A stretch of 64,000 nucleotides of DNA from Neolewinella litorea (lineage in GTDB: Bacteria; Bacteroidota; Bacteroidia; Chitinophagales; Saprospiraceae). A program made the position numbers and the translations under genes. Shown piece after piece: positions 23,252 to 46,312 of this stretch. Where the stretch lies: NCBI RefSeq assembly GCF_004803465.1, contig NZ_SRSF01000012.1, forward strand, positions 1 to 64,000. The letters run 5' to 3'. The notes beneath the pieces were generated by a model, which worked only from the letters and a program-made list of their open reading frames with translations, was not told the DNA's origin and made no database searches. Numbering within the stretch: the stretch's first letter is position 1; every line of letters begins with the position of its first letter.

Positions 23252-24403
23252 CTACTCTGCCGCGACGATCCGGAGCAGACTTTTGGCCTGGGCCGCCCGT
23301 TGGCGGGCCATCGCCACCGTATCGCCGAGGGCCGTCAGGTGACCCATTTTCCTGAAAGGCCGCGTTTCCGCCTTGCCGTAGAGGTGGGGGTGTACTTCGG
23401 GGATGGCGAGCACGTCCATCCAGCCCTGGTAGCGGGTCGGGCCCCGACTGCCTTCCTCTCCGAGCAGGTTGATCATGGCGGCGGGGCGCAGGAGCTGGGG
23501 ATCGCCCAGGGGCAAGCCGAGTATGGCACGCAGGTGCTGTTCGTACTGGCTGGTGGCACAGGCCTCAATGGTGGGGTGTCCGCTATTGTGGGGGCGGGGC
23601 GCTACCTCGTTGACCAGCAGTTCACCGTCGCGGGTCAGGAAGAGTTCGACGGCGAGCAGTCCTACGATCTCCATCTTCTGGGCTACGTCGACGGCCAGTT
23701 TGCTGGCGCGACCGTCGGTATCGCCGTCGAGGGCGGCCGGACAGATCAGGAACTCTACCAGGTTGGCGGTGGGGTGGAATTCCATTTCCACGGTAGTGAA
23801 TACCTTGACCTCGCCCGTGGCGGAGCGGGCCACGATCACGGCCAACTCCTTCTCGATATCGGCCAGGTCTTCGATCAGGCTCGGCCCTTCCAGCAGCCGC
23901 TGCTCCAGGTCTTGCCGCGTACGAATGACGGACACCCCCTGCCCGTCGTAGCCTCCCGTACGAGTCTTCTGTACGAAGGGCAGTTGCACGGCACCCGCGT
24001 TCACCGCCCGTATGATCTCCTCCTTGCTACCGAACAGCTGAAAATCGGTGGTGGCGATGCCGTGGTCGGCGTAGAATTGTTTCTGCAGACCCTTGTCCTT
24101 GATCAGGTCAATCACGGCGGGCTGGGGGTAGACCTTCACCCCGGTTTTTTCCAATTCGTGCAGCGCGCGGGTATCGATGTGCTCGATCTCGATGGTGAGC
24201 ACGTCCAGGCCGTGGGCAAAGGCCATCACGTCCTCATAATCGCGGAAATCGCCGTGTTGGAATACCGTGGCGTAGGGCGCAGCGGGGAAATTCTCGTCGC
24301 GGTCGAGCACGTAGATGGGCAGGTGCCACTCGCTGGCCGCCTGACAGAGCATTTTACCGAGTTGGCCGCCGCCGAGGATGCCTAGTTTGGGAAAGTTGGA
24401 CAT
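23252..24403 (-). CDS. purK: 5-(carboxyamino)imidazole ribonucleotide synthase
   Basis: A 383-residue ATP-grasp enzyme of purine biosynthesis: it carboxylates AIR to N5-CAIR with ATP and bicarbonate. It opens with KLGILGGGQLGKMLC, the PurK signature. Central ATP-grasp segments are VQKTRTGGYDGQGV and EKELAVIVARSATGEV, and the metal/active region is LLVNEVAPRPHNSGHPTIEA. Length is normal for PurK. It is cytosolic and leftward, with its start just left of the first repeat array; no PurE partner is next to it. Confidence 0.95.
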   Translation of the reverse strand: MSNFPKLGILGGGQLGKMLCQAASEWHLPIYVLDRDENFPAAPYATVFQHGDFRDYEDVMAFAHGLDVLTIEIEHIDTRALHELEKTGVKVYPQPAVIDLIKDKGLQKQFYADHGIATTDFQLFGSKEEIIRAVNAGAVQLPFVQKTRTGGYDGQGVSVIRTRQDLEQRLLEGPSLIEDLADIEKELAVIVARSATGEVKVFTTVEMEFHPTANLVEFLICPAALDGDTDGRASKLAVDVAQKMEIVGLLAVELFLTRDGELLVNEVAPRPHNSGHPTIEACATSQYEQHLRAILGLPLGDPQLLRPAAMINLLGEEGSRGPTRYQGWMDVLAIPEVHPHLYGKAETRPFRKMGHLTALGDTVAMARQRAAQAKSLLRIVAAE

Positions 24404-24471
24404 GGAGCTAAGGTAGCTGTCGTACCGGAAACACGATATCGGGAATCCGTTTTCTTTGCGTGGTTGGTCAA

Positions 24472-25065
24472 CACGGGCTGAGGGCTTTCAAGCCCGATGG
24501 TACCTCCCCACTCTGCCAGCCTCCCAGGCAACTTGCCGGCTCAAGCCGTCGCTACACGGGCTGAGGGCTTTCAAGCCCGATCGTACCTCCCCACTGCCAG
24601 TCTTTCGAGCAACTTGACGGCTCAGGCCGTTGCTAGACGGGCTGAAGGCTTTCAAGCCCGATATCACCGCCGCGCCGCCGGCCTTTCGAGCAGCGTGACG
24701 GCTCAAGCTGTCGATGATTTACTCGTAGCGGCGGCTTGAGCCGCCTTGCTGCAGTTTTTCGAGCAGCTTGACGGCTCAAGCCGGCGCTACATGGGCTGAA
24801 GGCTTTCAAGCCCGATTTCAATGTCCCACCGCCAGTCTTCCGAGCAGCGTGACGGCTCAAGCCGGCGCTACAGGAACGGGCTGAGGGCTTTCAAGCCCGA
24901 TATCACCGCCGCGCCGCCGGCCTTTCGAGCAGCTTGACGGCTCAAGCTGTCGATGATTTACTCGTAGCGGCGGCTTGAGCCGCCTTGCTGCAGTTTTTCG
25001 AGCAGCGTGACGGCTCAAGCCGGCGCTACAGGAACGGGCTGAGGGCTTTCAAGCCCGATCGTACC
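24472..25065. repeat. Palindromic repeat array 1 with two Uma2 gene-end remnants
   Basis: Six units of the CGGGCTGAGGGCTTTCAAGCCC type start near 24474, 24556, 24637, 24790, 24874 and 25034. They alternate with the palindrome GACGGCTCAAGCCGTC and its variants. Units 3 and 5 contain an insert (24710-24750 and 24949-24990) that encodes VDDLLVAAA-stop, identical in protein sequence to the end of the Uma2 gene at 25158 but with different synonymous codons. Array units are otherwise 81-85 bases as in array 2. No protein is believed encoded. Confidence 0.85.
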
Positions 25066-25157
25066 GCAACGCCGCCTGTATCCAGAATGCACCCCACGGC
25101 TAACTGAAAAACCTTAAGCAACTCCGGTTGCGTTAACTTAGTACCAAGTTGCCTGCC

Positions 25158-25754
25158 ATGTCACAGTTACTTACCGCCGCGGAAACTATCGCCCAGCTGC
25201 CCACCATGCGTTGGACCCTCGACCGCTACCACAAGATGGTGGAGGCGGGGTTGTTGGACGAATACGATCGGGTGGAACTGTTGTTTGGAAAACTGGTGCA
25301 AATGTCTCCTGTAGGAATTTTACACGGAAAGACCGTCAACAACCTTTTGCGTCACTTCACGCGCATTTTGCCCGAGGAAAACTACACGGTCGGCATTCAG
25401 AACCCCGTAACGTTGATCGACGATTCGGAACCCGAACCCGACCTTTACGTAGCAAAAGGTCCACTTAAATCGTATGACCGCCATCCCTTTCCCGAGGATC
25501 TTTATCTGGTCGTGGAGGTTTCCGACAGCACGCTTAACCATGACCGCACGGCCAAAAAGATAGCCTACGCCGTGGCCGCCATAGAAGAATACTGGATCGT
25601 CAATATCTACGAGAAGCAGATCGAGCGATTCACCGACCCCCTCCCGGCGGAGGGCACCTACGCAAAGCAGGAAATATTTAAAGCAGGAAGCACCTTTTCC
25701 AGTCTGCAACTGGGTGATTTTGCCGTGGACGATCTGCTCGTAGCCGCGGCTTGA
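25158..25754 (+). CDS. Uma2 family PD-(D/E)XK endonuclease-like protein
   Basis: A 198-residue protein of the Uma2/DUF820 family, restriction-endonuclease fold. The putative catalytic set is D95 (EPEPD), E120 (VVEVS) and the K133/K134 pair (RTAKKIAYA), in the order expected for PD-(D/E)XK nucleases. The typical TLDRYHKMVEAGLL, LLFGKLVQMSP and EEYWIVN segments are present. The role of Uma2 proteins is unknown. The gene lies between two palindromic repeat arrays, and its last codons and stop fall inside a palindrome (GGCTTGAGCC) continuous with array 2. A TTG at 25149 is an alternative start. Confidence 0.88.
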   Translation: MSQLLTAAETIAQLPTMRWTLDRYHKMVEAGLLDEYDRVELLFGKLVQMSPVGILHGKTVNNLLRHFTRILPEENYTVGIQNPVTLIDDSEPEPDLYVAKGPLKSYDRHPFPEDLYLVVEVSDSTLNHDRTAKKIAYAVAAIEEYWIVNIYEKQIERFTDPLPAEGTYAKQEIFKAGSTFSSLQLGDFAVDDLLVAAA

Positions 25755-26795
25755 GCCGCCTTGCTGCCAGTCTTTCCAAGCAGCTAGACGGCTCAAGCCG
25801 TCGCTACACGGGTTGAGGGCTTTCAAGCCCGATTCCCCCGCCCCACTGCCAGTCTCCGAAGCAACTTGCCGGCTCAAGCCGTCGCTACACGGGCTGAGGG
25901 CTTTCCAGCCCGATTCCTCCGCCCCACCGCCAGCCTCCCAAGCAGCTTGACGGCTCAAGCCGTCGCTACATAACGGGTTGAGGGCTTTCAAGCCCGATTC
26001 CTCCGCCCCACCGCCAGCCTCCCAAGCAGCTTGACGGCTCAAGCCGTCGCTACACGGGTTGAGGGCTTTCAAGCCCGATTCCCCCGCCCCACTGCCAATC
26101 TCCCAAGCAGCTTGACGGCTCAAGCCGTCGCTACACGGGTTGAGGGCTTTCAAGCCCGATTCCCCCGCCCCACTGCCAATCTCCCAAACAGCTTGACGGC
26201 TCAAGCCGTCGCTACATAACGGGCTGAGGGCTTTCAAGCCCGATTCCCCCGCCCCACTGCCAGTCTCCGAAGCAACTTGCCGGCTCAAGCCGTCGCTACA
26301 CGGGCTGAGGGCTTCCCAGCCCGATTCCTCCGCCCCACCGCCAGCCTCCCAAGCAGCTTGACGGCTCAAGCCGTCGCTACATAACGGGTTGAGGGCTTTC
26401 AAGCCCGATTCCTCCGCCCCACCGCCAGCCTCCCAAGCAGCTTGACGGCTCAAGCCGTCGCTACACGGGTTGAGGGCTTTCAAGCCCGATTCCCCCGCCC
26501 CACTGCCAATCTCCCAAACAGCTTGACGGCTCAAGCCGTCGCTACACGGGCTGAAGGCTTTCAAGCCCGATTCCCCCGCCCCACTGCCAATCTCCCAAAC
26601 AGCTTGACAGCTCAAGCCGTCGCTACACGGGCTGAGGGCTTTTAATCCCGATTCCTCCGCCCCACCGCCAGTCTTCCCAAGCAGCTAGACGGCTCAAGCC
26701 GTCGCTACATAACGGGCTGAGGGCTTTCCAGCCCGATTCCTCCGCCTTGCTGCCAGCCTCCCATGCAGCTAGACGGCTCAAGCCGTCGCTACGGT
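25755..26795. repeat. Palindromic repeat array 2, about 12 units of 81-85 bp
   Basis: Units start near 25809, 25890, 25974, 26055, 26136, 26220, 26301, 26385, 26466, 26547, 26628 and 26713. Spacing is 81 bases, 84 when TAA follows GCTACA, and 85 for the last-but-one. Each has a first hairpin (CGGGYTGAGGGCTTTCAAGCCCG), a C-rich linker (CCCCGCCCCACYGCCA) and a second hairpin (GACGGCTCAAGCCGTC) ending GCTACA. The five-unit block 25809-26219 is repeated at 26220-26627. The units abut directly without unique spacers, so it is not a CRISPR. Reverse-strand open frames across it are read-through. Confidence 0.9.
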
Positions 26796-26815
26796 GATTC
26801 GTCATCTCCACCAAC

Positions 26816-26850
26816 AAAAAGCCCCCCGACAATCAAATTGTCGGGGGGCT
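26816..26850 (-). terminator. Strong terminator for the membrane pyrophosphatase gene
   Basis: AGCCCCCCGACAAT (26820-26833) pairs perfectly with ATTGTCGGGGGGCT (26837-26850) around a 3-base loop. Read on the minus strand the stem is followed by five T, 64 bases beyond the hppA stop. Confidence 0.9.
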
Positions 26851-26913
26851 ACGCTGACCGGCAACTTTCGTGGTCGGGCAGTATCTGGAGCAGCGGAACG
26901 GCTGGAGCCGTCG

Positions 26914-29175
<2,262 letters not shown>

Positions 29176-29310
29176 AAAAGTGAGGAGATTAACTTGTTGT
29201 TGAAGAAAGAAGGGTTCCGTCTTCGATGACAAGCGATCTAGATGGCCGCAGGGGGCAAAACAAAAGGCAACGCCCTACGCTTCAAAAGTTCGATGATCGA
29301 AATGTGACGC

Positions 29311-46135: not shown

Positions 46136-46192
46136 GGTGCGGTTGTTGAGCGGGTTGGGAGCATATACGCTGGCCGCTGTGGTGAATACTTC

Positions 46193-46312
46193 GCTGCCTG
46201 AGGCAGCTTTGTACTAGCGCTGCCTGAGGCAGCATTTTGCTGGCGCGACCTGAGGTCGCTTTGTGCTGGCGCTGCCTGAGGCAGCTTTGTACTGGCGCGG
46301 CCGGAGACCGCG
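46193..46312. repeat. Array of five hairpins at 26-bp period with covarying stems
   Basis: Hairpins start at 46193, 46219, 46245, 46271 and 46297, exactly 26 bases apart. Three are GCTGCC-TGA-GGCAGC. The third is GCGACC-TGA-GGTCGC, with compensatory changes at two base pairs. The fifth is GCGGCC-GGA-GACCGC, with one mismatch. Spacers are variants of TTTGTACTGGC. The array fills most of the gap between the ROK gene stop and the cupin gene start, both leftward. Confidence 0.9.

Follow-up and report, generated by a model that had tools for sequence, protein, structure and literature searches.

A GTAG-tagged REP/REPIN family between purK and hppA in Neolewinella litorea: a Uma2 gene whose 3' end a REPIN has rewritten, and a tail that probably stems from a lost tandem copy

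Introduction

The gap between purK and hppA on contig 4 of the 4.40 Mb genome of the marine bacterium Neolewinella litorea (G000; RefSeq assembly GCF_004803465.1, NZ_SRSF01000012.1) holds a single Uma2 gene between two arrays of palindromic repeats, and the array on its purK side carries two further copies of the last codons of a Uma2 gene. What are these repeats, what moves them, and how did the end of a gene come to lie within them? A sequence-only reading of the window, by which we mean the whole stretch of DNA that was analysed (64,000 nucleotides, positions 1 to 64,000 of the contig), had taken the array for a platform of Uma2 genes, which would be gained and then deleted by recombination between repeat units, somewhat like REP/RAYT pairs.

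The purK-hppA locus

Genomes were compared across a set of 21 from the genus, including the sister species N. aquimaris (G006; locus L080/L242) and N. maritima (G124), and genes were called with our own codon-usage score, not from annotation. The gap and its two neighbours contain the following features.

23252..24403, minus strand: purK, the left neighbour, encoding 5-(carboxyamino)imidazole ribonucleotide synthase; NCBIfam TIGR01161 (366.6 bits against a cut-off of 318.4)
24400..24457, plus strand: leader between purK and array 1, which aligns with the stretch just 5' of the N. aquimaris purK-side Uma2 gene; local alignment
24472..25062 (about), plus strand: array 1, on the purK side of Uma2, made of GTAG-tagged REP units (type A) and of palindrome units of type B
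24710..24724, plus strand: first copy of the Uma2 tail remnant (V-D-D-L-L), which agrees with the N. aquimaris tails at 10 of 12 bases
24725..24790, plus strand: REPIN built as GTAG-hairpin-spacer-hairpin-CTAC and joined to tail copy 1; RNA folding gives -47.4 kcal/mol (z -7.8)
24949..24963, plus strand: Uma2 tail remnant, copy 2, a duplicate of the same event; segments 24637-24791 and 24876-25030 match at 152 of 155 bases
24964..25029, plus strand: REPIN joined to tail copy 2; repeat comparison
25158..25754, plus strand: Uma2 gene (PF05685) of 198 aa with an uninterrupted frame, its stop and the four codons before it being REPIN-derived; Pfam
25740..25807, plus strand: REPIN over the Uma2 3' end, TGA stop in the first hairpin; folding gives -43.5 kcal/mol (z -8.6), and both G006 genes have homologous REPINs
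25740..26792, plus strand: array 2, in which type A and type B make up about 12.5 units of 81-84 bp
26897..26917, minus strand: REP with the TAG stop of hppA inside its GTAG
26914..29232, minus strand: hppA, the right neighbour, encoding a sodium-translocating pyrophosphatase and running towards Uma2 (convergent); NCBIfam NF001955 (1131.8 bits against a cut-off of 1059)

Both tandem arrays that had been noticed in the sequence are present, at about 24472-25062 and 25740-26792, and their spacing is mostly 81-84 bp, with some steps of 73 and 85 bp in array 1. On the hppA strand, an intrinsic-terminator-like hairpin followed by a T run was seen by eye at 26815-26851, beyond the REP that overlaps the hppA stop.

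The repeat family

The palindromes of the arrays belong to a GTAG-tagged REP/REPIN family, whose elements are small relatives of single-strand transposons. Type A, GTAGCGNCGGCTTSAGCCGNC in the GTAG-first orientation, is a short palindrome with GTAG at one end, and most units add a second palindrome, type B (CGGGTTGAGGGCTTTCAAGCCCGAT); in 122 of the 204 first units, found with a search core that excluded GTAG, the tag stands before the core. Two REPs in inverted orientation form one hairpin, and at 25740-25807 and 24725-24790 the folding energies given above were equalled by none of 200 shuffles; such REP pairs were reportedly named REPINs in a 2011 study. At one mismatch or less, 69 REP copies were found in the N. 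litorea genome, compared with 0 for a reversed control, and REPs occur in 12 of the 21 genomes of the genus. The searches were ungapped, so that units with a longer hairpin are missed (for example at the RAYT gene of G006, see below), and retrieval covered 5 of the 14 REP clusters of G116 and, of the 98 REP copies of G131, those in RAYT loci. Rfam at its gathering thresholds gave no match at the arrays.

The GTAG REP/BIME families with a RAYT that are described in PMC2817692 (2010) and PMC3733652 share with these repeats the 5' GTAG, the short hairpin, the inverted pairs and the arrays, and, in the same accounts, also the location at gene 3' ends, the REPs beside the transposase gene and a copy number that tracks the presence of the RAYT. 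The GTAG repeats presented in PMC3733652 come from Proteobacteria, Cyanobacteria, Chloroflexi and the PVC group, whereas the Neolewinella family is found in Bacteroidota; unlike those families, the units of the window arrays also carry a second palindrome without GTAG, namely type B. This palindrome alternates with type A at 24472-26792, and in other parts of the genome it occurs in groups that lack type A (e.g. at G000:C7:32109-32581 and C39:113039-113576).

The likely partner transposase

The transposase gene at G000:C34:210297-211049 was recognised through its stop codon, which lies inside a REP; it is a fifth such gene, overlooked by the initial Pfam scan of this genome. Its product, P0002, passes the NCBIfam model NF047646 (REP_Tyr_transpos; 86.7 bits, cut-off 80) and matches Y1_Tnp (28.5 bits, cut-off 23); REPs stand on both sides of the gene, and the stop in question is a TAG within the GTAG of the REP. 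None of the four Y1 transposase genes first shown by Pfam in this genome has a type A REP within 1.5 kb. P0002 has homologues of 44% identity or more in 7 of the 21 genomes, and the REP is carried by all seven of these and by 5 of the 14 others (Fisher P 0.007), with means of 38 and 2.4 copies, respectively; the five genomes in which the REP is found but no close RAYT homologue count against the pairing.

Within 1.5 kb of the P0002 homologue, GTAG units are found on both sides in G000, G130, G131 and G137, whereas G116 and G121 have them on a single side. The G006 homologue shows 0 units by the ungapped search, yet GTAGCGACGGCCTTCAGCCGTC is present at its stop codon; the sequence that comes after this homologue, CAGTAGCGACGGCCTTCAGCCGTC, is a REP whose hairpin is slightly longer. 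The TAG stop of the RAYT gene falls within the GTAG of a REP in G006, G131 and G137 as it does in G000. A second copy in G116 (L269) has no GTAG unit within 1.5 kb (another G116 copy, at C38:2367, lies outside the sample), and among 21 more distant RAYT loci (L255-L268, L271-L277) a single GTAG unit was found, in L272. Taken at the level of gene and repeat sequences, the REP/REPIN elements were most likely moved by the genus's own RAYT, which is predicted to act on these REPs. The comparison with REP/RAYT pairs had been drawn as a loose analogy, and it holds in a stronger sense: the arrays themselves belong to a REP/RAYT family, with GTAG REPs and an NF047646 RAYT that has REPs beside it.

As set out in a 2018 survey of HuH enzymes (PMC6006769), TnpA-REP subclass 2.4 (RAYT group 4) is abundant in Cyanobacteria and Bacteroidetes and has the motifs NH[IFV]H and YIxNNP, and because this subclass is reported there, REP/RAYT systems of Bacteroidetes are already in print. 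Compared by motifs alone, P0002 fits the first of these with NHVH and the second, loosely, with YILYNP.

Other palindromes accompany other transposase genes. A short array of GCTGCCTGAGGCAGC palindromes with a 26 bp period lies at 46192-46306 of the window, and the same palindrome occurs three times downstream of another Y1 transposase gene of the genome (L049, G000:C23:220856), which suggests a second REP/RAYT pair. The Y1 transposase gene of L048 (G000:C36:120403) is flanked on both sides by CCCGACATCCTGTCGGG-type palindromes, 13 in 3.3 kb, and we regard these as a further REP-like family of N. litorea.

REPs and stop codons

The TAG stop of the upstream gene is the TAG of the REP's GTAG in 24 of 51 scorable cases, hppA included, and no other offset was seen more than twice. 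Cases were scorable when a coding frame ended between -100 and +25 of GTAG, which applies to 51 of the 122 first GTAG units, and the sample comprised the window and 73 fetched loci from seven genomes (G000, G006, G116, G123, G130, G136 and G137); the 24 overlaps are partly orthologous (L045 and L216) and thus not all independent. The pattern persists when the coding threshold is moved between 0.05 (29/57) and 0.30 (19/28). Among the units that face away from the gene (17 at the main threshold), offset -4 is the sole one seen three times, which we read as the place where the symmetric unit also shows GTAG to the gene.

For two genes, the position of the stop was compared in relatives. Of 19 relatives, 9 share the codon at which hppA stops, another 9 stop one codon later and one stops four codons later. 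For the L196 gene of G006, 19 of 20 relatives place the stop no more than two residues away, and in the remaining one the frame is broken there. By this comparison, the REP seems to sit at, or a codon or two from, stops that already existed. Di Nocera 2013 (PMC3733652) states that GTAG termini often give a TAG stop to flanking ORFs; the overlap counted here in Neolewinella had in this way already been put into words for other organisms.

The REPIN-derived end of Uma2

The Uma2 gene at 25158-25754 matches Pfam PF05685 with 107.9 bits (cut-off 27, E 5e-31), and its product is predicted to be nuclease-like. The protein does end VDDLLVAAA-stop inside a palindrome, as had been read from the sequence. 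Its final codons, GTA GCC GCG GCT TGA, are REP sequence (written GTA GCx GCG GCT TGA, they are the REP itself, GTAGCGNCGGCTTGAGCC), and the REPIN at 25740-25807 supplies the residues VAAA and the TGA. Among the 54 gene ends listed, Uma2 is the sole gene that is read on into the hairpin, via GTA to TGA. The Uma2 genes beside hppA in G122 and G124 have other C-terminal residues and no REP, and a frame-broken Uma2 copy beside hppA in G136 likewise has no REP. The REPIN has rewritten the C terminus of the Uma2 protein.

In N. aquimaris, the purK-hppA gap contains two tandem Uma2 genes, which are 63% identical to each other and both end in GATGATTTATTAGTAGCG, followed by a REPIN (the shared ending is also written GATGATTTATTA-GTAGCGTCGGCTTGA). 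As the same REPIN ending is found at the window Uma2 and at both N. aquimaris genes, the REPIN would have been in place at the gene end before the two species split.

Repeats and Uma2 genes across the genus

The proposal that Uma2 genes have in the array a platform or homing site of their own can draw on the Uma2 3' ends lying within REPINs at the purK-hppA locus of two species and on a Uma2 gene of G137 (L105, G137:C2:1805332-1805874) with six GTAG REP units, arranged as three inverted pairs, from about 70 nt past its stop; this last case is the only result that favours a wider link between REPs and Uma2. Against it, 41 of 44 Uma2 loci in the genus have no type A GTAG unit in the fetched stretch, GTAG REPs being found at the window, its G006 orthologue and L105, and a Uma2 gene that ends inside a REP is seen at the first two only. 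These 44 loci are the window, L040, L080, L081 and L092-L131, with 8 weaker or partial matches left out, and some of them stop at a contig edge, where a REP could be missed (17 nt past the stop in L119, 46 nt in L129). The Uma2 genes that G122 and G124 have at the same locus are free of REPs, as described above, and the second Uma2 gene of the N. litorea genome has no REP unit within about 3 kb. At L103, a GTAG hairpin of another type was seen by eye downstream of the Uma2 gene.

The copy numbers of REP and Uma2 are not correlated over the 21 genomes (Spearman -0.32, P 0.15), where the Uma2 counts are matches to one protein query, fragments included (N. litorea counts as 1 and Pfam finds 2 there). 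Both are present in 9 genomes, Uma2 only in 8, REP only in 3 and neither in 1, and the extremes include REP-rich genomes without Uma2 matches (98 and 0 in G131) as well as Uma2-rich genomes without REPs (9 Uma2 matches and 0 REPs in G134). The enrichment of the unit beside Uma2 genes that a platform would call for is not seen in related genomes, the G137 case apart, in a comparison made by locus and by genome. We have rejected the platform, which we judge very unlikely, on these counts, REPs occurring in their genomes irrespective of Uma2; the array has no special relation to this gene family, and what its repeats most likely preserve is the trace of a gene lost in the ordinary way.

The tail remnants of array 1

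The two extra copies of GTCGATGATTTACTCGTAGCGGCGGCTTGAGCC, starting at 24710 and 24949, are indeed there. The bases 5' of GTAG at 24725 and 24964 read GATGATTTACTC, which agrees with the N. aquimaris tails at 10 of 12 positions, being equally close to both copies of that species, and with the window Uma2 at 9 of 12. Among 243 GTAG units, drawn from the window, from L080 and from a further 73 fetched loci, at least 10 of 12 bases upstream of GTAG match a Uma2 tail only at the two remnants and at the three real Uma2 ends, the next best unit reaching 9; with random bases, the chance of such a match is 3.8e-5 per unit. In blastn, tail copy 1 matches both Uma2 genes of G006 with an E of 9e-4 over 27 nt, REP bases included. 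With just about 12 gene-derived bases, the tail might be read as repeat sequence extended by chance or by selection and having nothing to do with Uma2, but the match is unique among the 243 units, keeps exact register to GTAG and is located where N. aquimaris has the gene, and we find such an origin scarcely credible.

The sequence-only reading had held that all differences from the Uma2 gene are synonymous and that the copies come from independent, once-functional paralogues. All codon changes are synonymous, but just three substitutions in four codons count; the differences in the VAAA-stop codons are a polymorphism of the repeat and not gene evolution, because these codons are REP sequence. 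The left joint had been placed at GCCGTCG, and GCYGTCG does also fit the neighbouring REP; no more than about 12 bases (D-D-L-L) are unambiguously gene-derived. Both remnants share these 12 bases and the REPIN within one duplicated segment of array 1 (24637-24791 and 24876-25030), a recent tandem amplification step, and since its two halves are identical at 152 of 155 bases, the remnants go back to one event; two independent remnants are rejected on the same grounds. The tails are not recent copies of the gene at 25158, from which they differ at 3 of 12 bases, and what stands of the paralogues is that the tail most likely derives from another once-complete Uma2 copy, as one remnant and not several. 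Searched with blastn and tblastn, array 1 yielded no further piece of the body of a second Uma2 gene.

Probable loss of the purK-side copy

The tails of the window sit on the purK side of Uma2, where N. aquimaris has its second Uma2 gene. In the tree, the window Uma2 is nearest to the hppA-side copy of N. aquimaris, and the purK-side copy of that species groups with genes of other species (82/85 at full length, 96/92 over the first 60 columns), in a full-length tree with 8 of 16 inner branches under 80. The leader and start of the window Uma2 match the N. aquimaris hppA-side gene, with 87-90% identity over the first 120 nt, and the leader at 24400..24457 aligns with that of the N. aquimaris purK-side Uma2 (score 24 beyond the purK ATG; maximum 16.5 in 500 shuffles). 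Position and tree suggest, as the simplest reading, that the window lost its purK-side Uma2 and kept the tail. In the purK-hppA gaps of G123, G128, G137 and G131, which by eye hold other repeats, other sequence or almost nothing, no Uma2 remnant was found by eye and tblastn.

The window Uma2 is a mosaic, with a 5' end like the N. aquimaris hppA-side copy and a middle nearer the purK-side copy. This suggests gene conversion between the tandem Uma2 copies, by which the orthology of these genes would be blurred.

In the common ancestor with N. aquimaris, a REPIN would have been placed at the 3' end of Uma2 between purK and hppA, replacing its last codons and stop; Uma2 would then have come to stand in two tandem copies, each with a REPIN tail, and the arrays would have grown by tandem amplification of REP units. 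In the lineage of the window, the purK-side Uma2 would have been deleted, possibly through microhomology or slippage, with its last codons left on the REPIN and the left break where the REP's AGCCGTCG meets the gene's GCYGTCGAY, and the segment of tail and REPIN would later have been duplicated once. The order of these events is a proposed one, and we hold it to be likely that REP/REPIN insertion, a tandem Uma2 pair, loss on the purK side and duplication of the tail, with no special tie between array and Uma2, jointly explain the locus.

Several points keep the gene loss from being certain: the small size of the gene-derived part, about 12 bases, the lack of any other piece of the gene body in array 1, the equal closeness of the tail to both N. 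aquimaris copies, the mosaic make-up of the window Uma2 and a published precedent for tails captured without a loss (PMC2817692). The Uma2 tail with its REPIN could instead have been copied into the array by template switching: the precedent consists of four rayt 3' ends inside BIMEs (PMC2817692), the GCYGTCG joint fits a short-homology switch, and array 1 has already duplicated tail and REPIN once. However, a simple local switch predicts tails in array 2, downstream of the surviving Uma2, and both lie upstream, where N. aquimaris has a second gene. The three bases that separate tail and window Uma2 argue against a recent copy. We consider such a capture rather unlikely and prefer the loss of the purK-side copy.

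Meaning and outlook

Our literature search found nothing relevant on Uma2 with palindromic repeats or REPs, nor on Neolewinella repeats. The nearest parallel is the capture of rayt 3' ends inside BIMEs as described in PMC2817692, where, as in the window, a gene tail, its stop and the next REP become part of an array; unlike in that case, the tail of the window is from Uma2 and not from a transposase, and the donor copy has apparently been lost. What the region shows is a REP/REPIN-RAYT family of Neolewinella, together with one gene whose end a REPIN has rewritten and a tandem copy of that gene, probably lost, that is kept as a tail. More tentatively, and with considerable doubt on our part, REPINs fused to gene 3' ends may be recurrent points of breakage and joining, at which cassettes of tail and REPIN are duplicated and gene bodies lost, and may in this way drive the turnover of tandem genes in the genus; if this is true, the Uma2 locus would be a case of REP-driven tandem-gene turnover caught in the act. 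A puzzling repeat region is explained by a known kind of mobile family, with its likely transposase named, and it offers a readable case of a REPIN that rewrote the C terminus of a protein and of a probably lost gene that left only a tail joined to a REP.
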